Part shown: positions 470-50,722 of the stretch, in pieces
How positions within the stretch are numbered: position 1 is the stretch's first letter
Layout: each line of letters begins with the position of its first letter
Assembly (NCBI RefSeq): GCF_037040815.1
Contig: NZ_CP146232.1
Location: 3,442,001 to 3,506,000 of the forward strand
Length of the DNA: 64,000 nt
Direction: 5' to 3'
From: Pararoseomonas sp. SCSIO 73927
Lineage (GTDB): Bacteria > Pseudomonadota > Alphaproteobacteria > Acetobacterales > Acetobacteraceae
Position numbers and translations under genes: made by a program
Notes under the pieces: model-generated
Database searches by the model: none
Seen by the model: only the letters and a program-made list of their open reading frames with translations
What the model was told of the DNA's origin: nothing

Positions 470-1810
470 ATGGATAGTTCCGCCGAGATGCGATCGCGGC
501 ATTCCGCGGGGCGTCGCTGCCTAACCTGTGAGGGGCCGCTCTGGCGTGGTGACGCACTTACAGAGCTGGCTGACCGCCGCGAGTTCCGCGCGCGATTGGA
601 AGAAGTGCTGGCCTTCGCTGAGCTCACCCATGGCAAGCAAAGTGATCGCTGCACAGCAGTCATGCTGCTCGATCTTGATCGGTTCAAGGCCGTCAACGAC
701 AGCCTCGGTCACCCAGCCGGTGACGAGTTGCTTCGCAAGGTTGCGGTGCGACTTCGATCTGCTCTTCGCGAACAAGATCTGCCCGCTCGCCTCGGAGGCG
801 ACGAGTTTGCGGTGCTTCTCGACAACCCCGTCACTCGGGACACGGCCGCGAGCATAGCTGCTCGGCTGGTTGACCTCATAAGCCGCCCATACATGATCGA
901 TGGGAGCATCGCGAATATCGGCGCAAGCATCGGGATCGCGCTTGCCGAACCAAGTTCGACTTTGGATGACGCGCTTCGCCGCGCTGACCTTGCACTTTAC
1001 AAGAGCAAGGCAGATGGTCGGGGACGCTTCACCTTCTTTGAGCCATCACTCCAGACGGCAGCGGAAGCTCGTCAGGCGCTTGAATTCGATCTGCGCGCTG
1101 CGCTGGCGCTAGGGCAGTTTGAGCTATTCTACCAGCCCAAGCTCGACCTGCGGACTGATCAGCTTAGCGGTTTTGAAGCGCTTATTCGGTGGCGGCACCC
1201 TCAACGCGGGTTGGTTCCTCCCGACAGCTTCATCCCGATGTCTGAGGAACTCGGCCTCATTACTCGGATTGGTGAGTGGGTGATCCGAGAGGCTTGTGCC
1301 GAGGCGGCAAGGTGGCCGGACAGCCTGACCGTCGCGGTGAACGTTGCGCCTTCTCAGTTCAGCACAGGCTCATTGCTGCCGACGGTACAAGCTGCGCTCG
1401 CAGGGTCGGGCTTGTCCGGCTCACGGCTTGAACTGGAGATTACAGAGACTGCGCTGCTGCGTAACGGTCCAGATGTGATGAAGCAGTTGCAGGCGATCAA
1501 AGCTCTAGGTGTCCAGATCGCCCTCGATGATTTCGGCACCGGATATTCGTCCCTAACACAACTTCGAAGCTTTCCTTTTGATCGCGTGAAGATCGATCGA
1601 TCGTTTGCTGACGATGTACAGATCGTGCGCGCGGTGACGGCACTCGGAGCCAGTCTCGGCATGTGTGTGACTGCTGAGGGCGTCGAGACTGCCGAGCAGA
1701 TGCTCCGCCTTCGTGGAGACGGCTGCACGGAAGCTCAGGGCTACCACCTGAGCCGGCCAGTCCCATCGTCAGACGCTGTTAAGTTGATCCACCGGTACCT
1801 GAAGCAGTAG
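470..1810 (+). CDS. GGDEF-EAL c-di-GMP turnover protein
   Basis: This 446-residue protein has a short N-terminus, a GGDEF domain (about residues 30-190) and an EAL domain (about 205-440). The GGDEF signature is intact at 109-113 and an inhibitory RxxD site (REQD, 100-103) sits five residues upstream of it. The EAL part keeps EAL (236-238), DDFGTG (353-358), KID (374-376) and AEGVET (402-407). Both diguanylate cyclase and phosphodiesterase activities are therefore possible. No sensor or membrane segment is present. The BLUF gene starts 17 bases downstream with a strong ribosome site, so the pair is probably co-transcribed. The ATG at 470 is preceded by AAGGGG. Confidence 0.93.
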   Translation: MDSSAEMRSRHSAGRRCLTCEGPLWRGDALTELADRREFRARLEEVLAFAELTHGKQSDRCTAVMLLDLDRFKAVNDSLGHPAGDELLRKVAVRLRSALREQDLPARLGGDEFAVLLDNPVTRDTAASIAARLVDLISRPYMIDGSIANIGASIGIALAEPSSTLDDALRRADLALYKSKADGRGRFTFFEPSLQTAAEARQALEFDLRAALALGQFELFYQPKLDLRTDQLSGFEALIRWRHPQRGLVPPDSFIPMSEELGLITRIGEWVIREACAEAARWPDSLTVAVNVAPSQFSTGSLLPTVQAALAGSGLSGSRLELEITETALLRNGPDVMKQLQAIKALGVQIALDDFGTGYSSLTQLRSFPFDRVKIDRSFADDVQIVRAVTALGASLGMCVTAEGVETAEQMLRLRGDGCTEAQGYHLSRPVPSSDAVKLIHRYLKQ

Positions 1811-1827
1811 GAGGGGCAGGAGGAGCA

Positions 1828-2259
1828 ATGGCCGTGCTGAACAAGATCTACCGTTTGATTTACGTGAGCCAGAACACGCTACATGGACCGGTGGAGGACA
1901 TGAAGCGGGAAGTGGATCAAATTCTTGCAGTGTCCCGCCACAACAATGCGCGGGATGGCATCACTGGTGCGCTGTTGTTCAACTCCAGTTGCTTTGCCCA
2001 AGTGCTGGAGGGCGAACTGGATGCTGTCCACGGCGTGTTCGAGCGCATTCAGATGGATCCCAGGCACAGCGAGACTGTCGTCCTTGCGTGCGAGCCTGCC
2101 TCAAGGGAGTTCGGCGACTGGTCTATGGCTTACGCAGGGGCGGTTCGGAATGAGGAGATCGCGTTCTCCCCCCTAGCCGAACCTGCCGTTCATCAAGCTT
2201 CTGCCACCCGCATCCTGGACCTCCTTCGAGGCGTAGTTCTTCGACAGGGCGCCCAGTGA
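1828..2259 (+). CDS. BLUF blue-light photoreceptor protein
   Basis: This 143-residue protein is a stand-alone BLUF (FAD-binding blue-light sensor) domain with a short tail. The expected photocycle residues are visible: Tyr12 in RLIYVS, Asn39/40 in RHNNARDGITG, Gln58 in FAQVLEG, and Trp98 and Met100 in GDWSMA. Ribosome site AGGAGGAG lies just before the ATG. It directly follows the GGDEF-EAL gene, an arrangement that resembles BLUF-EAL proteins such as BlrP1 and YcgF split into two polypeptides. Inference: it may control the neighbouring c-di-GMP enzyme in response to light. A second BLUF gene of identical length lies at 14,264-14,695. Confidence 0.93.
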   Translation: MAVLNKIYRLIYVSQNTLHGPVEDMKREVDQILAVSRHNNARDGITGALLFNSSCFAQVLEGELDAVHGVFERIQMDPRHSETVVLACEPASREFGDWSMAYAGAVRNEEIAFSPLAEPAVHQASATRILDLLRGVVLRQGAQ

Positions 2260-21515: not shown

Positions 21516-22568
21516 ATGTCCGGCACCATGATGGACATCTTCAACGGGGACGCCTTCACCAGCGTGACCCTCACGTCGAAGGTGAACGAGACCTTCCCCT
21601 ACGTCCCGACCTTCCTCTACGACCTGGGCATCGCCCCGGCCGAGGGGATGGTCACGCTGACCGCGGCCTTTGAGGAGGAGACGGGCGGCATCCGCCTGAT
21701 CCCCACCTCGCCGCGCGGCGCGCCGCCGAGCCAGCAGACTGGCACCAAGGCCAAGCTGCGCAAGCTCGACGCGGTGCACTTCGCCCGCGAGGCGCACGTG
21801 AACGCGGACGAGCTGCTGGCGCTGCGCGGCCGCGGCGCCCTCACCCCGGAGACGGCGCAGGGGCTTCTGCTGAAGCGCACCGATGGCCCGGTCGGCCTGA
21901 AGGTGGAGTGGAAGCTCACCCTGGAGCACATGCTGCTGGGTGCGGTGGACGGCGTGGTCTACGACGCCGACAACAGCACCGTCCTGTACGACTACTTCGA
22001 CTGGATGGGCACCACCCGGCCGGATGCGCTGAACCTGCCGATCAGCACCATGACGGCGGACACGGCCGTCTTCGAGGCCTTCGCCATGGCGCTGCGCCGG
22101 GAGATGATCCTGGCCCTCACCGGAATGGCGTTCGCGGGCGGCCAGGTCGTCGTACTCTGCGGCGACAACTTCTTCGACGCCCTGATCACCTCCAAGGAGC
22201 TGAAGGCCGCGAAGAAGAACGGCGCCATGGGCAACCAGGACGCCGCGCTGAAGATCGCGGACAACTCGCCCTACTCGGCCTTCATCTATGCCGGGATCGT
22301 CTGGGTGAACTACCGCGGCACGCTGGACACCAAGGTGTCGGTGCCCACCGACGAGGCGCGCGCCTTCATGCTCGGCGTGCCCGGGCTGTTCCAGACGCTG
22401 TTCGCGCCGGCGGACACCTTCGACACGGTCGGCGCGGAGGGGCTCCCCCTCTACCTGCTGAACCTGCCGGAGCGGCAGACCAGCAAGCGCTTCACGGCCG
22501 AACTGCAGTCCAACCCGCTGATCGCGTGCCTGCGCCCGCGCAGCCTGCGCCGCATCACCAAGAGCTGA
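21516..22568 (+). CDS. Major capsid protein (lambda gpE family)
   Basis: This 350-residue protein starts at the ATG at 21516 after GGAG. It shows the family features: MDIFNGDAFTSVTLTSKVNE, FEEETGGIRLIPTSPRGAPP, KAKLRKLDAVHFAREAHVNA, and late VPTDEARAFMLGVPGLFQTLF. The typical length is about 340. It forms the HK97-fold shell. Confidence 0.96.
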   Translation: MSGTMMDIFNGDAFTSVTLTSKVNETFPYVPTFLYDLGIAPAEGMVTLTAAFEEETGGIRLIPTSPRGAPPSQQTGTKAKLRKLDAVHFAREAHVNADELLALRGRGALTPETAQGLLLKRTDGPVGLKVEWKLTLEHMLLGAVDGVVYDADNSTVLYDYFDWMGTTRPDALNLPISTMTADTAVFEAFAMALRREMILALTGMAFAGGQVVVLCGDNFFDALITSKELKAAKKNGAMGNQDAALKIADNSPYSAFIYAGIVWVNYRGTLDTKVSVPTDEARAFMLGVPGLFQTLFAPADTFDTVGAEGLPLYLLNLPERQTSKRFTAELQSNPLIACLRPRSLRRITKS

Positions 22569-23963: not shown

Positions 23964-25148
23964 ATGGCCACCCCGCAGGACTATGTGGTCTGGAACCTCT
24001 CCGCGATCGCGGTGCGGACCGAGACCCTCGCCTCCGTCGATGCCATCAACGGCACGCCGGCGCTCTCCGACATGATCGTCGGCGAGATCACGGTCCGCAT
24101 GCCGCAGCAGGCGGCCGAGGACCCCTCCATCAACTTCAGCCTCGACAGCAACGCGCCGATCGTCACGGGCATCAAGCCCGAAGTGACGATCCGCGTGCCG
24201 CTGCGCGGCGCGGGCACCCCCGGCCAGGCGCCCGAGTGGGGCAAGCTCATGCGGGCCTGCCGCTTCGCCGAGCTGCTCACCGCGGCCGCGATTGGCGCCC
24301 CGACGGCGGCCACCGCCGGCAACCGGACCAGCGTCACCCTGCCGGCCACGCCCTTCTCCGGCGCGGCCAACGCTTACCGCGGCATGCCCACTCAGCTCTC
24401 CGGCGCGCCGGCCTCCGCCATCGTCCTGCCGGCCTCCGGCTACACGGCCGGCCGCACCCTGACCCTGCCGTACTACTTCGATGCGCCGCTCAGCACCTCC
24501 ACCCTGGTGCAGGTTCTGCCGAACGCGCTCTACACGCCGACCTCGGACATGGCGCTGATCAAGCCGGTCACGATGTACGCGTACCGCAACGGGCTGCGGC
24601 ACCGCATCGTCGGCAGCGTCGGCAGCGCGCAGCTGGAGATGAACGCCGGCCAGCCCGCCTTCATCACCTTCACCATGAAGGGCATGCTGCTGGACGCCTT
24701 CCAGCCGGCGAACCCGCCCGCGGGCTGGAACCAGGTTGCCCGCGTCCAGCCCCCGGCCTGGCTGAACGGCGTCTCCCGTCTCGACGGCCTGCTCTGCAAC
24801 TGCGCCCGCTTCACCTGGGATCTAGGCGTCGAGGTGGTGGACCCGGAGAACCCGGAGGCGGCGCAGGGCTTCGACAACCCGATGATCGTCTCCGCGACCC
24901 AGCGCCTGACGATCGACCCGTTCTCCAACAGCACCCGCTCGCCGACGCGCTTCACGAAGTACCAGGCCGGCCAGGGCCTCGACTTCGCCGCCGTCATTGG
25001 TCAGACGGCCGGGAACCGCATCTCGGTGTGCATGCCGAGCGGCATCCTGACCGCCATGGACGAGAGCAACCGCTCGAAGCTCGGAGTGGACCAGATGACG
25101 CTCGCCCCGAACTTGCCCGACGCGGGCGTGTTCCTGGCGGTGTTCTGA
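23964..25148 (+). CDS. Major tail tube protein
   Basis: This 394-residue protein is preceded by GAGGAGG. Features such as VTIRVPLRGAGTPGQAPEWG, LLTAAAIGAPTAATAG and later MYAYRNGLRHRIVGSVGSAQ with FITFTMKGMLLDAF match large tail tube proteins of siphophages (gpV-like function). It polymerises around the tape measure. Confidence 0.88.
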   Translation: MATPQDYVVWNLSAIAVRTETLASVDAINGTPALSDMIVGEITVRMPQQAAEDPSINFSLDSNAPIVTGIKPEVTIRVPLRGAGTPGQAPEWGKLMRACRFAELLTAAAIGAPTAATAGNRTSVTLPATPFSGAANAYRGMPTQLSGAPASAIVLPASGYTAGRTLTLPYYFDAPLSTSTLVQVLPNALYTPTSDMALIKPVTMYAYRNGLRHRIVGSVGSAQLEMNAGQPAFITFTMKGMLLDAFQPANPPAGWNQVARVQPPAWLNGVSRLDGLLCNCARFTWDLGVEVVDPENPEAAQGFDNPMIVSATQRLTIDPFSNSTRSPTRFTKYQAGQGLDFAAVIGQTAGNRISVCMPSGILTAMDESNRSKLGVDQMTLAPNLPDAGVFLAVF

Positions 25149-25151
25149 TCC

Positions 25152-25814
25152 ATGTCCACGAAGAGCACTCGCGCGGCCCTGCTGGCCACCACCGCTGCCA
25201 TCGCCCCTGTCGTCACCGGGGGCGGGGTGATCGAGAAGGTCACCCTGGGCCCGCGCGTCTACACCCTGGCCGCGCCGACCCTGGCCGAGGTCGGGCAGCA
25301 CCTGGACGACCAGGCGCGCAACGGCGCCCCGGGCGCGGTGGAGATGATGGAGGCGGTGCGCGCCGCCCTGCAGGAGGACGGGGAGGGCGACAGCGCTCTG
25401 ACCGCGTTCGAGGAGGCCGAGGACGCCTGGGTGTCCTTCTCCTCCATCCACATCGTCACCGGCCCGGACGCGACCGAGAACATCCAGGCGCAGGCGACGG
25501 CGCTGCATCTCGCCCTGCTGAAGGCGCGCCGCGGGCGGGACCGGGCGGTGGCGAAGGTGGCGCGGCACGCGCAGGTGCTGGACATCCGGGCGCAGCAGGA
25601 GCGCGCGCAGTGGGAGGAGCACTGCCGGATCGTGGCGCTGCTCTGCCGGAGCTGGGAGGGCGCGGGCCTGCCCGAGTTCCCGAAGGATCTGGACCGTGAG
25701 GCGGTGGCCGCCACCCTGCCCATGGGCGACGTGGCGGCGCTCGCGCGGCGGGCCTACCAGCTCATGCAGCCGACCGGGGACGCGGAAAAAAACTCCGCGC
25801 CGCCCTCGTCGTAG
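25152..25814 (+). CDS. Tail assembly chaperone (gpG-like), zero-frame product
   Basis: This 220-residue product has the position and helical character of the G chaperone: YTLAAPTLAEVGQHLDDQAR, then helices with KARRGRDRAVAKVARHAQVL. Near its 3' end the codons GAA AAA AAC contain a canonical A_AAA_AAC slippery heptamer. A fraction of ribosomes should shift to -1 and continue into the frame ending at 26089. Preceded by the tube gene, as in lambda. Confidence 0.85.
   Translation: MSTKSTRAALLATTAAIAPVVTGGGVIEKVTLGPRVYTLAAPTLAEVGQHLDDQARNGAPGAVEMMEAVRAALQEDGEGDSALTAFEEAEDAWVSFSSIHIVTGPDATENIQAQATALHLALLKARRGRDRAVAKVARHAQVLDIRAQQERAQWEEHCRIVALLCRSWEGAGLPEFPKDLDREAVAATLPMGDVAALARRAYQLMQPTGDAEKNSAPPSS
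25787..25793 (+). other. Programmed -1 frameshift site A_AAA_AAC
   Basis: Seven nucleotides AAAAAAC lie in the correct register: zero-frame codons AAA (25788-25790) and AAC (25791-25793). After a one-base back-slip, reading continues from 25793 with no stop through 26089. A perfect 9-bp hairpin, GCCGGAGGG/CCCTCCGGC (25835-25843, 25853-25861), lies 41 bases downstream, further than the usual stimulator distance. Confidence 0.8.
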
Positions 25815-25825
25815 CACGGGGGCCG

Positions 25826-26089
25826 ATGGCGTTCGCCGGAGGGCTGTATCACCCCTCCGGCGGGGACTGGATCGTCGGGGCGACGGAGCGGCGCCGGAAC
25901 CCGCGCCTCACCCTCCCGGCGGTCTACAACCACGTGGTGCGGCTCTGGGCCCGGTGCCGGGGCGGGATGGGCGCGGGGCTTCTGCCCGAGGCGGGCGGGG
26001 TCAACGATCAGCCGAACTGGCTGATGAAGGCCTTCGCGCTGTTGGATGGGGCCGACGCCGAGTTGGAGAAGACGGGTAAGGATGCCTAA
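25826..26089 (+). CDS. T extension of the GT tail chaperone
   Basis: This reading frame is -1 relative to the gpG-like gene and open from the slippery site at 25787. An ATG occurs at 25826, but the segment is best understood as the C-terminal extension made by frameshifting. The sequence (GGLYHPSGGDWIVGATERR, LTLPAVYNHVVRLWARC, NWLMKAFALLDGADAELEK) would form the T domain that recruits tail tube protein. It stops one base before the RelA/SpoT gene. Confidence 0.8.
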   Translation: MAFAGGLYHPSGGDWIVGATERRRNPRLTLPAVYNHVVRLWARCRGGMGAGLLPEAGGVNDQPNWLMKAFALLDGADAELEKTGKDA

Positions 26090-26090
26090 C

Positions 26091-27362
26091 ATGGAAGCGA
26101 CCCAGCTTGCCGTGCCCGACCCCTTCGTGCTGTTCGATGGGGAGGCCGGCCGTGGGATGAGCGCTTGCACAATGGCAGCCTTTCCCGACTTTGGCTTCAG
26201 CAAGAACGAGGTCAGGCGAGCCGGAGAAGTCATTGCCAGCAGCCTCGTTTGGAGCCCCGAGACAGAGGAAGAAATCCTTCAGGCTTTCAAGGTGGCAAAC
26301 AGTTGGCGCGATAGCCACGCCTACCCGATGCGGAGCATTCGGAACTCCGTCATCCAGCATATCCATCACGCGGGACTGGACGGGCTAACCGCGGCGCGGC
26401 TTAAGCGGATGCAAGCTATCAGGCGAAAGCTGCGGCGTACCGGAGCCACCTTTCTGCTGAACCAGCTGCAGGATCTCGGCGGGTGCCGGGCGATCATGGA
26501 CGACATCGGTGGCGTCAGGGTGCTGGCTGACCGCCTACGGTCACAGATGCGGCACGAGATCCGGAAGGAGGACGACTACATCAGCAATCCGAAGGGGGAC
26601 GGCTATCGCTGCCATCACCTCATGTTGTCGTTCGTGCCGGATGACCCCGAGCGAGCCTCTTTCGCAGGCAGGCGCATCGAACTTCAGATCAGGACCCGTC
26701 TTCAGCACTCCTGGGCAACAGCTGTGGAGGCCGTTGGGCTTTTCCGCGGCGAGGACCTGAAAGGTCACCAGGGCAGCCCCGAGTGGCTGCGGCTGTTCTC
26801 CCTCATTTCAGCCGAATTTGCCGAGATGGAGGGGTGCCCACTCCCCCCGGGAACCTTGGACAAGGCGGACCGGGTCAGTGAAATCAAGCGCCTCGCCGGC
26901 GAGCTAAGCGCGGCGAAAACCCTGGAAAGCATCAAGCATGGGGTCCGTGGGACTGACTTTCCGATCTCTCCGAACTACCGGCCGACCCATTACTTGATCG
27001 TGTTCGACCACGCCACGCAGTCAGTCCGGGTCACTCCGGCAGCCGCGCCTGTGAATGCGGCCGTCCTGTACGACAGCGCAGAATTCCACGACAACCGGGC
27101 CGATAGCGATACTCAGACGGTGGTGCTGGTCGAGGTCGACAAGATGGAAAGCCTGAAGGCGGCTTATCCGAACTATTTCGGCGACGTGACTTTGTTCGGC
27201 GAGCAGCTTGAAAGCATAACGCGGACGGGGTTCGGGTTCGGTTATGGTGTCGCACCACGGCAGCCTGCACCGCGTCCAAGGGAGAAGTGGGGCGACCTGT
27301 CCTGGCTGCGCCGGAGACGGTTTCCACAACCCTCCCTGAAGGACCCCGAGAAGAAAGAATAG
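26091..27362 (+). CDS. RelA/SpoT-domain alarmone synthetase-like protein (tail-module cargo)
   Basis: This 423-residue protein starts at the ATG at 26091, eight bases after AAGGA. The RelA/SpoT nucleotide pyrophosphokinase domain (about 65-215) has RLKRMQAIRRKL (103-114), QDLGGCR with Asp128, DDYISNPKGDGYR (161-173, G-loop Tyr172) and ELQIRTRLQHSW with Glu198. There is no HD hydrolase domain. About 200 further residues follow, including QTVVLVEVDKMESLKAAYPN. Base composition is visibly lower in G+C than its neighbours, a sign of transfer. It could make (p)ppGpp, or modify tRNA as toxSAS enzymes do; a fused antitoxin-like C-terminus as in CapRel is possible but unproven. Confidence 0.85.
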   Translation: MEATQLAVPDPFVLFDGEAGRGMSACTMAAFPDFGFSKNEVRRAGEVIASSLVWSPETEEEILQAFKVANSWRDSHAYPMRSIRNSVIQHIHHAGLDGLTAARLKRMQAIRRKLRRTGATFLLNQLQDLGGCRAIMDDIGGVRVLADRLRSQMRHEIRKEDDYISNPKGDGYRCHHLMLSFVPDDPERASFAGRRIELQIRTRLQHSWATAVEAVGLFRGEDLKGHQGSPEWLRLFSLISAEFAEMEGCPLPPGTLDKADRVSEIKRLAGELSAAKTLESIKHGVRGTDFPISPNYRPTHYLIVFDHATQSVRVTPAAAPVNAAVLYDSAEFHDNRADSDTQTVVLVEVDKMESLKAAYPNYFGDVTLFGEQLESITRTGFGFGYGVAPRQPAPRPREKWGDLSWLRRRRFPQPSLKDPEKKE

Positions 27363-27370
27363 GCCTGCGC

Positions 27371-27976
27371 CTACAACCCGTAGGCCCGGTAGCAGCCCTG
27401 CCTCGCCTCCTCGGCCGCGAAGGACGAGTTTAGCGAGCCGACGATGGCGGAGCCCAGGACGCCCTGGCTGGGGCGGTACGGGGTCTGGACGCCGGCGCCG
27501 ACCGCGGAGGCCTGGGCGTCGCAGGCGGCGCGGGCCTGGGCGCGGGCTGCGGCAGCCTGGGCGGCCTGCGCGGATGCGGCGCCAGATGCCAGCCGGTCGC
27601 GGCGGCGCCTCTCCACCGCGTCGGAGAGGCGGGCCACCTCTGCGTCGATCCGGGCCTAACGCGAGGCGCGGCTCTCGCGAGGAGTGGGGTTCTGCTCGCT
27701 GATGTTCGCCTCGGCAGCACGGCGGAGGGCCTGCACATAGTCCGGGCGGCCTGAGAGGGCGTCTTCCAGGAGGGAGTTCTCGCGGGCCTGGGCAGGGGTG
27801 GGTGTGGCGGCCCTGCTGACAAAACCCGGCGCGCCAGTGATCAGATCGCGGCCATAGCGGATATCGCCCTCTGCTAGTCCGCCAGTCCCGAAGGCGGGGC
27901 AGGTCTCACGAATTGCCTCCGGCTGTGGGGAGCATGCCGCAAGTGCCAGGGCGGCGAGAACGACGATCCGGCGCAT
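27371..27976 (-). pseudogene. Lipoprotein gene split by an in-frame amber codon
   Basis: From the ATG at 27976 the product begins MRRIVVLAALALAACSPQPE with lipobox LAAC, and ends at a TAG (27658-27656) after 106 residues. The very next codons, in the same frame, continue ARIDAEVARLSDAVERRRRD for about 95 more helical residues to 27371. One CAG to TAG change would explain the break, giving an intact exported lipoprotein of about 200 residues. Alternatively the downstream part is a separate gene from the GTG at 27637, or the stop is suppressed. Function unknown; convergent with the RelA/SpoT gene. Confidence 0.65.
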
Positions 27977-28050
27977 GGCGCTCCCTTGCTCTAAGAGGGC
28001 GGGGAGGATGGCCGAACGCCGGGGCGCGAGCAAACTGGCGCCCCGGCTCG

Positions 28051-28263
28051 TTACGCCGCGCGCCGCCGCCAGTCCTGCGGAGGCGGGGAGGCTGCATGGG
28101 CGGCCGCCAGAGCCTCAAGCCAGGAAGCAACGCTCTCCGGGACAGAGGCCGCCCCGGACGCCCAGCGGCGCACGAGACGATCGTCACAGGACAGAGCCTC
28201 CGCCAGCCCCCGAAGGGACCAGCGGAGAAGGGCAAGGCATTCGCCCAGGCGGGCGGGGCTCAC
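28051..28263 (-). CDS. Small HTH protein
   Basis: This 70-residue product, with the GTG at 28263, overlaps the upstream stop as GTGA; an ATG at 28281 is possible. The core ECLALLRWSLRGLAEALSCD with the following DRLVRRWASGAASVPESV is a clear Cro/XRE-type helix-turn-helix. It is a candidate to bind the tandem palindromes at 28539-28597, just upstream of its own operon. Confidence 0.7.
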   Translation of the reverse strand: MSPARLGECLALLRWSLRGLAEALSCDDRLVRRWASGAASVPESVASWLEALAAAHAASPPPQDWRRRAA

Positions 28264-28493
28264 CCCCCGCCTCCTAGCCACCGGGCGATGACCGGAAAGG
28301 CCGCCGTCAGGGCGGCGAGGGCAGCGATCACGGCGGCGGTGGGGGTGACGTAGCGGGCCACGCGGAGGTTGTTGGCCTCCTCCGACAGCTTGCGCTGCTC
28401 GGCCGCGAACTTGTCCGTCTCGGCCTGCGCGCGGCGGATGCGGGCGATCTGCTCATCCAGATCGAGCGGGCTAGGGGCGGTGGTGATGCTCAT
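28260..28493 (-). CDS. Coiled-coil, single-pass membrane protein
   Basis: This 77-residue product has residues 12-45 forming a charged coiled coil (DEQIARIRRAQAETDKFAAE). Residues 50-72 are a membrane helix (PTAAVIAALAALTAAFPVIA), ending in a Gly run. It is the first gene of a leftward three-gene cargo operon within the tail module. Similar small proteins occur as anchors; function unknown. Confidence 0.7.
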   Translation of the reverse strand: MSITTAPSPLDLDEQIARIRRAQAETDKFAAEQRKLSEEANNLRVARYVTPTAAVIAALAALTAAFPVIARWLGGGG

Positions 28494-28538: not shown

Positions 28539-28597
28539 GTCCGCAATATGCGGACTAACGCGCGTGCCGTCAACAGGTTTGTCCGCGCATTGCGGAC
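28539..28597. promoter_or_regulatory. Tandem palindromic operators in the divergent promoter region
   Basis: Two similar palindromes, GTCCGCAATATGCGGAC (28539-28555) and GTCCGCGCATTGCGGAC (28581-28597), are spaced 42 bp apart (about four helical turns). They lie between the leftward cargo operon starting at 28493 and the rightward gene starting at 28650. Each is a GTCCGC/GCGGAC dyad in a 17-bp frame, the normal signature of paired repressor or activator binding. Confidence 0.75.
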
Positions 28598-28649: not shown

Positions 28650-29342
28650 ATGCTCGCTCCGCGCATCTCGCGGTTCGGCCGCCCCATGCCCGACCTCCTG
28701 GCGGCGTGGCGGCACGACGTGGCCACCGCCGTCCAGGCCTCGGTCTACGAGGCCGAGACCGGGATGACGGAGGAGTTCCGCGACGACCTCGGGGCGGCGT
28801 TCCCCGGCTCCCGGCGCGCCCGGACGCTGGTCACCGGGCGGGTCTACCCGGACCGCCAGGGCGCGGTGTCCATCAACGCCGCCGGCTCCGTGGTCGGGCG
28901 CGGCGGCAAGAACAGCCCCTGGCCTCTGCCGCTGAAGGCCTTCAACGAGGGAGCGGAGATCCGTGGCGCGGCGCAGGGTGCCAGCCTCGCCATCCCAACC
29001 GCCCGCGTCCCGCGCGTCGGCGGGCGCCGCATGACGGTGGCGGAGGTGGAGGCGCGCTTCGGCGAGAAGCTGACCTTCATCCCGCCGAAGGACGGTCAGC
29101 GCGGCGCCGGCATGCTGGTGCTGGAGCAGCAGACCACCGGCCGCTCCGGCGGCGTTCGCCGGCTGAGCGCCGGGCGTGTTCGGCAGGGCCGCAAGGCGCA
29201 GGCCCTCGTCATGTTCGTCCTGGTCCCGAAGGTGAAGGTCCCGACGAGGCTGCACTTCGAGGCCATCGCCAAGCGGTGGGCCGACACCATGCCGTCCATC
29301 CTGGACCGGCAGGCATCTCGCATCATGGGAGGGAGGGCGTAA
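28650..29342 (+). CDS. DUF6441-like tail protein
   Basis: This 230-residue product starts at the ATG at 28650, five bases after GGAG. N-terminal AAWRHDVATAVQASVYEAET, then MTEEFRDDL and a SRRARTLVTGRVYP segment resemble DUF6441 proteins found before tape measures in alphaproteobacterial phages. A basic C-terminal region (LVPKVKVPTRLHFEAIAKRW) follows. It resumes the tail module after the cargo; probable tail completion or minor tail role. Confidence 0.7.
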   Translation: MLAPRISRFGRPMPDLLAAWRHDVATAVQASVYEAETGMTEEFRDDLGAAFPGSRRARTLVTGRVYPDRQGAVSINAAGSVVGRGGKNSPWPLPLKAFNEGAEIRGAAQGASLAIPTARVPRVGGRRMTVAEVEARFGEKLTFIPPKDGQRGAGMLVLEQQTTGRSGGVRRLSAGRVRQGRKAQALVMFVLVPKVKVPTRLHFEAIAKRWADTMPSILDRQASRIMGGRA

Positions 29343-29345
29343 CCG

Positions 29346-32300
29346 ATGTCTGGCAGCCGCACCTACGCCTTCCGCCTGGAGGCCGATGCCGCCCCGCTGG
29401 AGGCTGCCTACGGGCGTGCCACCCGGGCGACGGACACGTTCCAGAGCGCGACCGAGGCGTTCTCGGCCGCCATGGCGCGCACCGGCGCGCCGATCGACGC
29501 CTTCACCGCGTCGCTGGCGAAGATCTCGGGCGGGACCAGCAGCGCGGAGCGCGCGACCCGCTCGGCCGCCACCTCCTTCTCCAACCTCGTGGCCAGCCTC
29601 GACCCGGTGACGGCCGCCTACCAGAAGGCCGCGCGCGCCGAGGCGGCGATGACCGACCTGCAGGTCCGCGGCATCGCCATCTCCGACCGCGAGCGCCAGG
29701 TCATCGGCGGCCTGTGGAGCGAGTACGAGCACTTGGCCGCCTCGATGGGGGCGGCCGGCGAGGCAGCACGGCGGAGCGTCGCAGCGCGCGAGGCGTCCAC
29801 CGCCGCCGCGGTGCGGGAGCGCGAGGCCGAGGCGGCGCTCGGCGCCGAGCTCGACCGCATGCAGGCGCGGCTGAACCCGCTCATCGGCCTGAACCAGCGC
29901 TACCGCGCCAGCCTGGAGGAGATCGGCACCCTCCAGCGCGCCGGGCGCCTCACCTCCCAGCAGGCGGCCGAGGCGGTGGACCGGGAGACCGCCGCCTACG
30001 ACCGGGCCCGCGAGGCCATCTCCGGCCGGGTCTCGGTCGATGAGCAGGCCCGCCGCGCCGCCGCCCAGACCGCGTCCGAGACGGAGCGCGCCGTCGCCGC
30101 GCTGAACGGCTATGTCCGGGCGCTGGACCCCCTCGCGGCCTCCCTGGCCCGCGTCACGCAGGCCGAGGAGGACCTGGCGCAGGCGCAGCGACAGGGCGTC
30201 GCCACCCCCGCGCAGGTTGCGGCCGTGACCCAGATGCGCCGCGGCCACGACGAGCTGGCGGCGGCCTCCAACAGGGCTGGCGGCGCGATCAAGCTGCAGG
30301 CGCACGAGATCACGAACCTCTCCGCCCAGGCGCAGGGCTGGCTGGTGCAGGTGATGTCGGGCGGCGGCCTGTTCCTGCCGACGATCCAGCAGGCACCGCA
30401 GGCTGTGGGCGCGGTCGGCGGCGTCTCCCGCGCGCTGGAACTCCTGCGGCAGACCTTCACGCCCACGCGCGTCGCCGCCCTGGCCTTCGCCGCCGGTGGC
30501 GTCGCGGTCACCGCCGCCGCGATCTCCCAGGCCAACGAGCTGGCCCGGCTGGACACGCAGCTGAAGGGCATCGAGGGCACCTACAGCCGGACGGCCGCTG
30601 CCGTGAAGGCCTCGGCCGAGAGCGTGGCGCGCTCGGCCATCGGGGTATCCGGCAGCGAGGCCCGCGCCGCGCAGGTCTCGCTGGCCAGCAGCGCCGCCGG
30701 CGCCCGGATCGGCGGCCTCGACTACGGCGAGCTGACGAAGCAGACGGCTGACCTCGCCGCCCGCCTCGGGATCGACCTCGCGGCGGCCCTCGACAAGGTC
30801 GGCGGGGCGATGAGGAACCCCGTCGCGCTGGTGGACGAGCTGCGGGCCCGCGGCTTCCCGGGCATGACCGAGAGCCTGCGCCTGACGGTGCAGCGCCTGG
30901 TCGAGGCCGGCGACCAGGGCACGGCTTTCGCCCTCGTCATGGGCCGGGTGGGCGAGACCAGCCGTGACGCGGCGAAGGAGGGCGGCCCCCTCCAGCAGGC
31001 GTTGCGCGAGCTGAAATCCAGCTTCGGCACCATCTGGGACGACATCAAGGACGGGCTGGCGAACGCCGGCACGCCGCTGCTGTCCTGGATGGCGGGGGTC
31101 ATCAAGGAAGCGCAGCGCATCCGTGACCTGAACCTCGGCAAGGGCGCCGGGGATCAGCCGGGCGACCTACCCTTCGGTCGCACTCCGTCGGGGCGGCCTC
31201 GCAGCGCCATTGAGGAGATCTTCGGCCTGAACCGGGCCGACGCCGGCGCGCCCGGCGCTGCCACCGCCACCTCGGGCCGGGTGCCTGCCGACTACCGCCC
31301 CAGCGTCGACCGGGGCGCGGACGTTGCTGGCGTCGATCGCGAGCTGATGTACCGGATCTTCGCGCTGGGCGAGCGCAGCCGGCGCGGGGCGGACGGCAAC
31401 TGGCTCGTCAGCCCCGTCGGGGCGCGCGGGGGCATGCAGGTCATGCCCGGCACCTTCGCGGAGATGGCCTCCCGCTACGGCATCCGGGGCGGGATCGACA
31501 ACGACGACGCGAACGCCGAGGCCGGGGCGCGCTACATGCGCGAGCTGCTGGACCGGTTCGGCGGCAATGTCCCGCGCGCGGCCGCCGCCTACAACGCCGG
31601 CCCGAACCGCCCCGAGGCGACGCTGCGGGCCATCGAGCAGGGCGCCTACGCCCGGCGCGTGACCGACGGCTACACGGGGCCGGGCACGGTTTCCATCCGG
31701 GTCCCCGAGGTGCGGGTGGAAGCCGACCGCATCACCATGCGGCCGGACTTCGACCGGAACATGGGCGACAACGCCCGCCAGCCCGCGATGGTGGGCGGCA
31801 ACGCCTATGAGCTCGCCCTCGGCATCGCACGCGGCGCGCCGGGCTCGCCCCAGGTCAGTGGCGGCACGGACGAGGCGCGCGGCCGCAGCGCGGCCGGGCT
31901 GATCCGGAACCTGCAGGAGGGGCTGCGCGCCGCGGCCGGCACCGACCAGCCGGTCGACAGCATCGTCCAGAAGATCCGCGAGCTGAACCAGGTCGTGGAC
32001 AAGGGCCAGGGCACGCAGGCGCTGTTCCTGCGCGGGCTCCGGGAGCAGTCGGAGGCTGCAGCAATCCTCGACCCGCGCCTGAAGGCCACGGCCGAGGCGC
32101 TGGCGCAGTACCGCGACCGGATGCGCTCGGCCGGCGAGGCGGAGACCGACGAAGGGCGGAAGGCCGCCGTCGCGGCCGCCCTGGCCAACCTGGGCGTCGC
32201 CTACAAGGCCGCGGAGCAGGAGGTCGGGCGCAACATCGCGGCCCAGGGGCGGCTCTCCGTGGCCTGGGGCGAGGGGCGGGATGCCGTGATCCGCCTCACG

Positions 32301-35300
32301 GCCGAGGAGCGCGCCCGGGAGGTGGTGCGCCAGGCGGGCTACGCCGGCACGACCGAGGAGGACGCCCGGGTCCGGAAGCTGACGGACGCCTACCTCCTCC
32401 TCGCCCAGCAGCAGGCCGAGAACAACCAGCGCGCCCAGAACCAGGGGGCGCGGGACAACCTGGCTCTTCTGGAGAAGGAGAGGGACCTCATCGGTGCCAC
32501 GGCCGATGAGCGCGAGCGGGAGCTGGCGGCCTTCCGGGCGCGGCAGCAGGCGCTTGCGTCGGGCGTGAAGGACGAGGGCCTGCTGCGGGAAACCCAGGAC
32601 CTCGCCCGCGCCCAGGTGGACGCCACCCGTCGCAACCAGTTGCTCACCAACTCGGCGACGGCGCTGCGGGACATCTGGTCCGAGACGGGCGACGTGATCC
32701 GGACCTCGATCGTGGGAGGGCTGGCCTCCGGCGAGGCGAAGGCGATCAGCTTCGGTAACGTCATGCGCGCCATCCAGGCGCAGTTCCTGGGCAAGGCCTT
32801 CGAGTTCACGATCAGCAACCCGCTACTGAACCAGCAGGATGGCGGCACGCGCGCTTCAATCTGGAGCGCACCAGGCACGCAGGCGACGCTGAACCGCATC
32901 GGCGGGTGGTTCTCCGGCGGCGGCAACACGAGCGGCAGTGCGCCCGCCACCCCTGGTTCCTCCGGCTTCTCCATGGGCGATGTGAGCAGCTGGGGTAGTG
33001 GCATTTCCAAGCTGTGGGATGCGGGCAAGAACCTGTTCCGGGGTGGTTCAACCTCCCTAGCCGCCACCGATCCGCTCGGCACGGGCGTCATCGGGACGGG
33101 AGAGGCGGTTGGCTCCGTCGCCCCAGCCGCCACCGGTGGCATGGACTTCTCCGGCGTCGGCATGGGCATAGCGATCGGCTCCTTCGCCGGCGGCCTGATT
33201 GCTGGCGCCAAGAACCCCGCCCGCCAGCAGAACTCTCAGATCGGCAGCACCGTCGGCGCGATCGTCGGCGCCTACTTCGGCCCGATCGGCTCCATGGTGG
33301 GCGGCGCGCTCGGCGGCGCCATCGGCGGCCTCTTCGGGCCCAAGGGTGCGTTCACCGGCGGCTATGCGAGCTTCGGCGTCCAGGGTGGCCAGTTCACCAC
33401 GACCAATGTGAACGGCAAGCGGGTGGACGGCGCCCAGCTGCAGAATGCGGCCGACGAGCAGGTCGCCGAGGTCAACCGCGCGATGAAGCGGGTCGGGGTC
33501 ACCCTCGGTGGCCTCGACATGCCCCTGGCGGCGATCCAGGGCTTCGGAGACGCCGCCGGCCGCAGCGCCGAACCCGACTTCGTGCGCCAGATCAGGAGCC
33601 GCGTCGTCACCGGTTCGGCCGTGGTGGACAACGTTACCCGGGCCAGCAAGGCCGACAACCTGGAGGACCTCTTCGCCGACGTGCAGTGGGGGCGGGACGT
33701 CTACGAGCCCCTGACCAAGACCGGCGTGGCCGCATCCGAGTTCCAGGTCGCGCTCGCCTCCTCCCTCAAGACCGTGGATGAGGCGATCAAGAAGGCCCGC
33801 GAGCTCGGCCTCGCCGAGGACGTGCTGCAGCAGAAGCGCAAGGAGGCCAGCGACGCCGCCTATGCCGCGCGCGACCGCGAGCTGCAGTCCACCACCCTCG
33901 ACCTGGAGGCACGCCGCAAGCAGGCCGAGGGCACCTACGGCACCTCCGACCAGCTGCGCCGCTTCGACGTGGCCGCCGGGGAGGAGCTGCGCCTGCGGGC
34001 CGAGCGCCTGAAGGGGCTCGGCTTGGAGCCGGAGGACGGCCGGGAGTTCGACCTCGTCCGGCAGACGCGGGCCGCGCAGGTGGCCGAGCGCATCAAGCTG
34101 GAGCGGGACCTCGCGCGCGCCGACGAGGACAAGGCGCGGGCCCGCTACAACGCAGGCTTCAACCTCGATATCGACACCCTGAACAGCACCGGCCGCGGGA
34201 ACACCGCTGCACGGATGGTGCTGCAGAACCAGGGCGAGACCGCCATCCTAGCCATGCAGCGCAGCCTGCAGGACCTGGGCAAGAGCGCGCAGGAGGTCTC
34301 GGACGCGGTCGAGAAGGCCACCGGCAACCTCGGCATCGCGGCCAAGCGCCTGGAGGAGGACCAGAGGATTGCCCTGGAGGGCCTGAACGGCGGGCTGGTG
34401 GACCGCTACCAGACCGCCATGGGCACCGCGGACGAGGAGGCGAACCAGCTGGCCCGGCTGGAGCGGCAGCACGCCGCCGAGCGGATCCAGATCGCCCGGC
34501 AGGAGGGCGCCGACCTCGCGCAGCTGGAGCGGACGCAGGCGGCGGAACGCGAGGCGATCACCAAGGCCGCGACCGAGCGCAGAAAGACGGAGGCCCTGGC
34601 GGTCGGTCAGAGCATCCGCGCCTTCCTCGACGGTCTGCGCACCACCTCGGCGGCCGCCCGCTCGCCGCAGGAGCAGTTCCAGGCCGCCAGCCTCTTCTTC
34701 GAGCGCGACGTGTCCCTGACGCGCTCCGGCGACGCGGATGCCAGCGGCCGGATCACCAGCACCGCGCAGTCCCTGCTGGAGGCGGCCTCCGCCATGTACG
34801 GCGGCACGCGGCAGTTCGCGGCCGTTCGGGACTACGTGGAGGCGACGCTCGCCAGCCTGCCCCAGACCGTTGCCTACGACGCCCAGACGGTGCAGCTGCT
34901 GCGCCAAGCCAACGCCACGAGCATCGCCCAGCAGCTACAGCTGGACATCATCGCCCAGCGCGCGGGCGGGGCGGAGGGCGCGGGGATCGTGCGCGCCGCG
35001 GTGGACGCCGGCTACGGGGCGACCATCGCCGCCCTGTCCAGCACGAGCGCCCATGGCTGGTCGGTGGCCGAGGCCCTGAGCGCGGCCGAGATCCTGGCGG
35101 GCAACGGCGACGCGGCGAGCATCACCGCCTCGCTGACCGTCGCCCTGACCTCCATCGGCAGCCAGACCATCGCGAACGACAACACCCGCACCGCCTCCAC
35201 CCTGGGCGTGGTGAACGGCCTGATCGCCCAGACCGCGGCGCAGGTCGGCACCCTCGGGCGGATCGCGGCGCGGTCGGACGAGGCCGCGGGCTTTCTGCTG

Positions 35301-36032
35301 GGCACGAACCTGAACACGGGAGCCACCACCCAGGCCGCCCGCGACCTCAACAGCACGATCGCAGGCGGCACGAACCCGCTCCTCTCGCTGATCTACGACG
35401 CCACGGTGAAGGTTGGGCAGATCCTGTCCGCCGGCATCGACGTGCGCGGGGACTTCGGCCGCACGGGCCCGGCCGGCCCGTCCTGGGAGCCGGGCCAGGG
35501 TGGCGACAGCGGCGCCGGCGGTGATGCCGGCGGAGCGGGGGGCGCCGGTGGTGGCGCCGGCGGCTCCTCCTTCGCGCTCGGCGGTGTCTTCGACCGCGGC
35601 CGCGTGGTCCCCTTCGCCCGGGGCGGCGCCTTGGTCAGCACGCCGACCTACTTCCCGATGAGCGAGGGCCGCACCGGGCTGATGGGCGAGGCGGGGCCGG
35701 AGGCGATCATGCCGCTGGGCCGCGACAGCGCCGGGCGCCTCGGGGTCCGGGTCTCCGACGCGCCGCTCGCCCGGGGTTCCACCTCCGCTTCGGGCGGAAG
35801 CGGGGATGCCCTGCTGGCCGAGCTGCGCGGGCTGCGGAGCGAGGTCGGTGGACTGCGCGCGGAAGTCCGCACCCTCCGCGACGAGCGCGGCCGGGATGCT
35901 GCGATCGCGCAGGGCCAGCGCGACGATGCGACGCGCCTTGCCGCCGCCACTGCCGGTGGGGTGGACGGGCTCCGGCGCGATCAGCGGGGCACGACCATGC
36001 GGGCCCGCGCCGCCGGGAACCGCGCGGCATGA
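29346..36032 (+). CDS. Tape measure protein with lytic transglycosylase domain
   Basis: This 2228-residue protein starts four bases after the previous stop. It has long helical and coiled-coil stretches at both ends. An SLT-type transglycosylase domain (about 660-760) shows [15 protein letters not shown] with the catalytic Glu, [20 protein letters not shown] and [12 protein letters not shown] glycine-zipper membrane-type segment lies near 1255-1340 ([27 protein letters not shown]), and a Gly-rich linker near 2050. It sets tail length; at about 1.5 Angstrom per residue the tail would be near 330 nm. The enzyme would open peptidoglycan on entry. Confidence 0.93.
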
Positions 36033-50031: not shown

Positions 50032-50274
50032 ATGAAGGCCAGTCCATCTGGAGGTTGGACTATCTCGAACATCGAGACAGCGTGCTCACAGCTGGGACTG
50101 ACGTGTGCGCCTCCCTCTCGGGGATCACACTACAAGGTTTCCAGCCCGCATCTGCACGGCATTTTGACGGTGCCTCATAAGCGGCCAATCAAACTGATCT
50201 ACATCAAATCGTTCATAGGTCTCGCTGAAGCTCACATTCAAGCATGCGAGGAGAGTGAGGAAGATCATGGCTGA
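50032..50274 (+). CDS. hicA: HicA-like toxin
   Basis: This 80-residue product has the HicA double-stranded RNA-binding-like fold pattern: WTISNIETACSQLGLTCAPP, SRGSHYKVSSP with the catalytic His, HGILTVPHKRPIKLIYIKSF. HicA toxins cleave mRNA. Starts at 50020 or 49909 are also in frame; the promoter dyad at 49911 argues against 49909. It overlaps HicB by eight bases, toxin first as usual. Confidence 0.82.
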   Translation: MKASPSGGWTISNIETACSQLGLTCAPPSRGSHYKVSSPHLHGILTVPHKRPIKLIYIKSFIGLAEAHIQACEESEEDHG

Positions 50275-50722
50275 TCATCGTTACCCGGTGGTGGTCTGCC
50301 CTGTCCCTGAGGATGAGGGGGGCGGCTTCGTGGCTTTTGCCCCTGATCTTCATGGCTGCACTGGTGACGGGGATACTGCTGAAGCTGCTATGGCGGATCT
50401 TAACGCCGCCGTTCTGGAGTGGCTGGACGAGGCTGCGCGTCTTGGGAGGGATGTGCCGGCGCCTGGCTGCACTGGCGACGACTTCGACCGAGATATGAAG
50501 AGGATTAGGAAGCTGATCTCCGCGCAGCGCTCCATGATCAAGGAGCAGCAGGAGAGCCTCAATTCAGCCCGCGCTCAGATCGAGGCACTTACAGAGCAGG
50601 TCGCTACTTTCCTTGAAGGCGATAAGAAAACCGACAAGGCATATCTGCTCAGCTGGGGCGCCGCAGTACCCGGCCATGTGGCAATGCGTCCTCGCAGGCG
50701 TTCGTCCCGCCTGCCCAATTAG
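50267..50722 (+). CDS. hicB: HicB-like antitoxin with coiled-coil C-terminus
   Basis: This 151-residue product has a HicB domain (residues 1-65): YPVVVCPVPEDEGGGFVAFA, PDLHGCTGDGDTAEAAM, ARLGRDVPAP. The usual DNA-binding RHH or HTH domain is not evident. Residues 70-125 instead form a long helix (KLISAQRSMIKEQQESLNSA) with a basic end. Ribosome site GAGG precedes the ATG at 50267. Confidence 0.82.
   Translation: MADHRYPVVVCPVPEDEGGGFVAFAPDLHGCTGDGDTAEAAMADLNAAVLEWLDEAARLGRDVPAPGCTGDDFDRDMKRIRKLISAQRSMIKEQQESLNSARAQIEALTEQVATFLEGDKKTDKAYLLSWGAAVPGHVAMRPRRRSSRLPN

Follow-up and report, generated by a model that had tools for sequence, protein, structure and literature searches.

What is a gene with a RelA/SpoT synthetase core doing among the tail genes of a prophage? 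The question is raised by a 64,000-nucleotide stretch of the genome of Pararoseomonas sp. SCSIO 73927 (contig NZ_CP146232.1, positions 3,442,001 to 3,506,000), which we call the window. An initial annotation, made from the sequence alone, had described a 423-residue open reading frame (ORF) with RelA/SpoT core motifs and no hydrolase domain, and had suggested a prophage-borne defence gene of the toxSAS type whose C-terminus serves as a regulator or sensor, with a hint at CapRel. We find that the gene at 26091–27362 probably encodes a CapRel-type fused toxin-antitoxin that a long-tailed prophage carries as a moron and that acts as CapRel SJ46 of Salmonella phage SJ46 (PDB 7ZTB, 9ERV) does. The gene type is already known. 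What is new is its place in a tail module, and a literature search of limited depth found no published CapRel in such a module. The gene and its parts are as follows.

26091–27362, + strand: probable CapRel-type fused toxin-antitoxin, 423 aa; true start possibly 26157 or 26172
26202–26750, + strand: toxSYNTH (RelA/SpoT synthetase-like) domain, about residues 38–220, placed by the Pfam match, the structure model and residue mapping
26988–27134, + strand: predicted beta-beta-alpha-beta C-terminal domain, residues 300–348, placed by the AlphaFold2 model and its fold match to 7ztb
27165–27176, + strand: putative YXXY autoinhibitory motif Y359-P-N-Y362, placed by a 60-row alignment and mapped to Y352/Y355 of SJ46

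In a Pfam search of the 423-residue protein, RelA_SpoT was the sole family at E ≤ 0.001 (residues 103–212, E = 5.8e-17) and no hydrolase domain was found, which bears out this part of the initial annotation. The hint at CapRel was right as well: the protein matches CapRel SJ46 (7ztb) over residues 36–373, that is, over the full fused length, with E = 1.9e-35, and CapRel is its best family match by a wide margin, antitoxin domain included. The PDC-S33 model, which also matches SJ46, matches residues 33–377, and the fold match between the AlphaFold2 model and 7ztb covers residues 33–379. The modelled C-terminal domain, with three strands and a helix, matches the pseudo-zinc-finger antitoxin/sensor domain of CapRel. 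The Foldseek match of the model has a high root-mean-square deviation (9–10 Å), yet the Z score of the fold comparison is good; this would fit a domain swing and does not tell the open from the closed state of the model.

As described in PMC9712102, the adenine site of CapRel SJ46 consists of R79 and R116, and Y155 is the G-loop tyrosine. Alignment maps all three onto identical residues of the window protein (R103, R133 and Y172), so that the loss of catalytic residues, which the initial annotation had named as a possible counter-finding, is not seen. The same source reports that SJ46 is unlocked by substitutions at Y352, Y355, A77, R116, V338, L339, A341 or A351. The equivalent residues here are Y359, Y362, A101, R133, V345, L346, E348 and A358, so seven of the eight are identical, the exception being E348 in place of A341; glutamate also occupies this position in all seven other non-SJ46 sequences of that alignment. 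The YPNY columns are invariant across the 60-row alignment, which has SJ46 among its rows. Alignment and model together thus place the catalytic residues of toxSYNTH, a predicted pseudo-zinc-finger fold and a YXXY motif in a single protein, as in SJ46, which is likewise carried by a temperate phage. The proposal of a prophage-borne toxSAS-type defence gene with a regulatory or sensory C-terminus is well supported by homology, predicted fold and conserved residues.

The C-terminal domain of CapRel SJ46 doubles as antitoxin and sensor, and the open enzyme pyrophosphorylates tRNAs, which halts translation (PMC9712102). By analogy, the window CapRel would be autoinhibited at rest, with the YXXY motif shutting the ATP site. 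A protein of an incoming phage, capsid or other, would bind the C-terminal domain and open the enzyme, which would then pyrophosphorylate tRNA and stop translation before progeny are made, and the lysogen population and its prophage would survive. The trigger of the window CapRel cannot be guessed, as SJ46 can be opened both by a capsid protein and by a phage protein unrelated to it (PMC11578894), and a further phage protein, in combination with FtsZ, opens CapRel Ebc (PMC13423816).

Several observations weigh against so close a parallel. Identity to SJ46, which is the one experimentally tested CapRel aligned, is only 31%, and the window protein has about 45 extra C-terminal residues. As A341 is replaced by E348, and A341K makes SJ46 constitutively toxic (PMC9712102), the lock differs from that of SJ46 in detail. 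L280 of SJ46, a residue probed in capsid-binding tests (L280P; PMC9712102), corresponds to Y296. Lastly, a scan for a single promoter type found no sigma-70-like promoter on the + strand between 25700 and 28700. The same scan found no terminator-like site on that strand, and its only sigma-70-like site lay on the − strand at 28573.

Whereas the SJ46 gene is flanked by a maturation control gene and lxc in a Punavirus, the window gene lies in a tail module, the relevant features of which, together with the head gene, are listed here.

21516–22568, + strand: major head protein of the prophage (PHROG 29, E = 1.3e-33), upstream of the CapRel gene on the same strand; candidate self-trigger
23964–25148: major tail protein
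25152–25814, + strand: tail assembly chaperone, G frame; in related prophages its homologues follow the major tail gene
25787–25793, + strand: slippery heptamer A AAA AAC, probable −1 frameshift from G to GT, judged from the sequence and the open fusion frame
25826–26089, + strand: tail chaperone, T frame
27371–27637, 27656–27976, 28051–28281 and 28260–28493, − strand: four small accessory ORFs between the CapRel and DUF6441 genes
28650–29342, + strand: DUF6441 minor tail-region protein, the next gene on the tail strand (Pfam, E = 8e-17)
29346–36032, + strand: tape measure protein, from profile matches

The G frame has no Pfam or PHROG name and was named from its position and the frameshift. 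A −1 shift within the A run turns G and T into a single open frame of 312 aa, which makes a GT frameshift plausible. This frame ends at 26089, and the ATG at 26091 lies one base past its stop, as the initial annotation had noted. A Shine-Dalgarno-like AAGGA in the end of the T frame precedes this ATG (M1) at a good distance. The start codon is nevertheless uncertain, as homologues align only from about residue 30 and residues 1–22 of the model have a predicted local distance difference test score below 50; M23 (26157) and M28 (26172) are possible alternatives. The unusual base composition of the gene was confirmed: its GC content of 0.62 is the minimum among the 34 called genes longer than 300 bp in the region 2300–42900 (only two shorter ORFs fall below it), and its GC at third codon positions, 0.75, is the second lowest (mean 0.91, standard deviation 0.06).

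Is the gene a regular part of this tail module? Of 397 genomes from the bacterial family, 33, the source genome among them, match the major tail protein at E ≤ 1e-10, and three (the source genome, G038 and G393) have a CapRel-like match at E ≤ 1e-30. G038 and G393 are not among the genomes that match the major tail protein, and none of the 32 others that do has a CapRel match at this threshold. We compared the slot between T and DUF6441 in 19 related prophages from 19 genomes, and none holds CapRel there. An ordinary structural (tail) gene, which the initial annotation had also named as a counter-finding if it recurred at this position in many phages, was therefore rejected.

The nearest relative, L084, belongs to the same genus, has a major tail protein that is 70% identical and, by gene order, shows a site that lacks CapRel. 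DNA similarity with the window extends through T up to its stop, and a reverse-strand gene ends 7 bp further on in L084. This gene is related to the window pair at 27371–27976 (62% over 74 residues, plus DNA similarity), which ends 8 bp behind the CapRel stop. As the two DNA sequences become similar again only some 140 bp into this pair, the right-hand junction of the CapRel gene is not fixed to the base. Absence from the relatives, as at the L084 site, and a deviant base composition mark the gene as a moron, which would have entered the junction between chaperone and tape measure genes as accessory cargo. Two further differences from L084 were seen: the two small reverse ORFs within 27371–28033 (−) correspond to one 211-aa lipoprotein-like ORF there, so that this gene appears split in the window, and the likely frameshift site of the L084 chaperone is, by eye, G GGA AAC in place of A AAA AAC, so that the heptamers differ between close relatives.

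The same slot is often filled. Gap sizes were measured from starts estimated by tblastn ends, so single values may be off; with this proviso, the gap from T to DUF6441 exceeds 300 bp in 13 of 18 relatives (median 706). DUF6441 was not found in L085, the nineteenth, where about 40 bp separate T from the tape measure gene. Gaps above 300 bp elsewhere in the module were counted between major tail gene and G (5/19), G and T (0/19), DUF6441 and tape measure (2/18), and tail terminator and major tail gene (1/8). Where the slot is empty, as it is in five relatives, the distance from the T stop to the DUF6441 start is −4 to +49 nt. The description of the CapRel start as the place where the next tail gene should begin therefore holds in comparison with these five, and not in the window itself, where the reverse ORFs precede the tail gene at about 28650. 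The claim of an unusual placement likewise stands only in part. Extra genes at this junction are common, as the 13 relatives and a moron of phage HK97 show, whereas the cargo lies wholly opposite to the tail genes in nine of the 13 filled slots (mixed in two, on the tail strand in two) and the window CapRel lies on the tail strand.

Neighbouring genes were called with a simple caller of our own, whose gene positions are wrong in some GC-rich loci (L086, L087); where no family search is given, the gene names were assigned by eye. Toxin-antitoxin genes occur in several slots: HicA and HicB in L090, HicB, BrnT and a helix-turn-helix (HTH) gene in L095, BrnT and an HTH gene in L099 (all Pfam; L092 is similar by eye), and BrnT (Pfam) in L100, which is in part metabolic-looking. 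L101 holds DUF6880 (Pfam), which also weakly matches a different candidate-defence model (E = 1.6e-5). As far as seen, the remaining cargo is not of the toxin-antitoxin type: lipoprotein-like genes in L084, L086 and L097, metabolic-looking genes in L091, two proteins without PADLOC match in L088, tail-like genes by eye in L094 and small ORFs in L098. This content stands without a background rate, and we claim no enrichment. HigA/HigB-like genes were also seen by eye on the opposite strand in the gap between major tail gene and G of L090, L091 and L095, which is a second gap of the tail module.

The BrnT and HicA/HicB genes suggest a different role for CapRel, namely that the slot gathers selfish toxin-antitoxin cargo that stabilises the prophage by addiction, with any defence incidental. 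We consider this unlikely. Classical post-segregational killing would not apply, as a fused antitoxin cannot be lost separately from its toxin, and for SJ46 CapRel a defence function has been proven (PMC9712102).

A defence role for CapRel as prophage cargo has parallels in known systems. By public annotation, gp15 of HK97 is a moron in the same slot, with the −1 frameshift tail gene on one side and the tape measure gene on the other, and it is described as a predicted inner-membrane protein of a superinfection exclusion system that blocks DNA injection (PMC10883804); unlike the window gene it is short (189 bp), and the two were compared by position and description only. Tab of Pseudomonas phage JBD26 is also a defence moron within a late operon, but it lies between terminase genes on the minus strand, has its own promoter and an anti-Tab partner, and blocks tail assembly (PMC10884400). 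PhRel/ATphRel of mycobacteriophage Phrann is a prophage toxSAS directed against superinfection (PMC9712102), and differs from the window CapRel in consisting of two separate genes.

Does CapRel occur beside structural genes elsewhere? A first scan of viral contigs gave 20 loci. A second, for QDLGGCR codons, gave 48 stretches with 45 new loci (some on contigs already seen), all of which encode a CapRel-like protein. The 65 loci form 40 clusters at 90% identity. In L147, a CapRel that is 34% identical to that of the window lies 218 bp behind a PHROG 8985 gene (labelled tail tube protein); four accessory ORFs then separate it from a tape measure gene, which matches PHROG 17300 (E = 3.2e-224). No frameshift partner was seen for the PHROG 8985 gene; as it lies behind a major tail gene, it stands in place of the chaperone, and we take the slot to correspond to that of the window. 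The end of a minor tail gene in L144 overlaps with the longest CapRel frame, whose homologous part begins 105 bp further on. CapRel lies behind an internal virion protein gene in L033, ahead of tail genes in L031 and, in a bacterial genome (L017), behind a gene with peptidase-like virion matches. Besides CapRel, no window protein matches L147, L144, L033 or L031. A same-strand CapRel beside a PHROG-tested head or tail gene was thus found in four of the 40 viral clusters, which is a lower bound, as only these four were tested, the remainder having been judged by eye or lacking a readable neighbour. In a tree of 62 CapRels, the six late-labelled rows (the window, L017, L031, L033, L144 and L147) need six separate changes (bootstrap range 6–6; shuffled labels 5.8), a scatter such as separate insertions would give. 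CapRel matches (E ≤ 1e-30) occurred in four of 385 genomes of the class and 13 of 398 of the phylum, its own included, and the flanks of 16 loci, one of them from the family genomes, read by eye over about 1.5 kb on each side, showed no evident structural neighbour. Other neighbourhoods were noted by eye: P2-like portal-type genes beside or near CapRel recur in L039/L134, L047 and L111, and lysis-type genes occur at L110, L121 and L132. In Escherichia phage vB_EcoM-673R5 (L004, 3965–5064), CapRel is annotated as two separate ORFs.

The window CapRel may be translated at least partly from the late message, and the late proteins of the phage itself must then be poor triggers or shielded. Other prophages meet such self-conflict with a dedicated inhibitor, such as anti-Tab (PMC10884400) or Ith for Tha (PMC11087260); no partner of this kind was recognised at the window locus, where PHROG searches with three of the reverse-strand ORFs at 27371–28493 yielded no named family. 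Could self-triggering instead be the purpose, with capsid or tail proteins of the phage activating CapRel as the lytic cycle ends, stopping translation and excluding late superinfection? The gene is co-directional and just behind T, with its Shine-Dalgarno-like site, the major head gene lies upstream, and CapRel is on the same strand beside head or tail genes in L033, L144 and L147. Such a switch would, however, cut the yield of the phage itself, and the avoidance of self-hits by the Tab and Tha systems points the other way, which makes this explanation very improbable. There is equally little to recommend a synthetase of (p)ppGpp or a related alarmone by which the phage reprograms its host in lytic growth: the RelA/SpoT fold and core motifs are intact, but alarmone synthetase models give only weak matches, all well under their cut-offs, set against the wide margin of the CapRel match, and the host genome encodes another RelA_SpoT protein, in an 826-aa frame, that is presumably the housekeeping enzyme. 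A housekeeping alarmone synthetase was rejected as the identity of the 423-aa protein on the latter ground. Overall, the initial interpretation is partly supported and right in its core.

An integrase lies at window positions −905 to 327. A search for attachment sites that would define the prophage ends yielded no tRNA and no convincing repeat in common with the right flank, where the longest word shared is 16 bp. Between the integrase and the left genes of the prophage lie, at 470–2259 (+), genes for a GGDEF-EAL protein and for a protein that by eye is BLUF-like, with low GC contents of 0.60 and 0.58, which are possibly signalling cargo of the prophage. A HicB-type antitoxin-like ORF was seen by eye at 50267–50722 (+), outside the tail module. 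Among 50,697 phage records, just two match the major tail protein (33% and 24% identity), against 33 of the 397 family genomes, so this prophage lineage is hardly represented among described phages.

More broadly, the junction between chaperone frameshift and tape measure gene might serve unrelated long-tailed phages as a convergent docking site for cargo of the superinfection-exclusion and toxin-antitoxin kinds. This generalisation, which we regard as tentative and rather doubtful, draws on gp15 of HK97, on CapRel in the window and independently in L147, and on BrnT and HicAB in the relatives. As a late-strand CapRel would be made together with the capsid and tail proteins of its own phage, such sensors would have to have been selected not to respond to them. 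If this is true, comparing CapRel with the head protein of the same prophage would read out the self/non-self discrimination of a capsid sensor. The window CapRel lies downstream of its own capsid gene on the same strand, and capsid is one class of protein that triggers CapRel SJ46. Two genes of one locus thus allow a direct test of how a capsid sensor carried by a phage avoids responding to that phage, and the finding points to a place in tail modules in which defence-type cargo may be sought.
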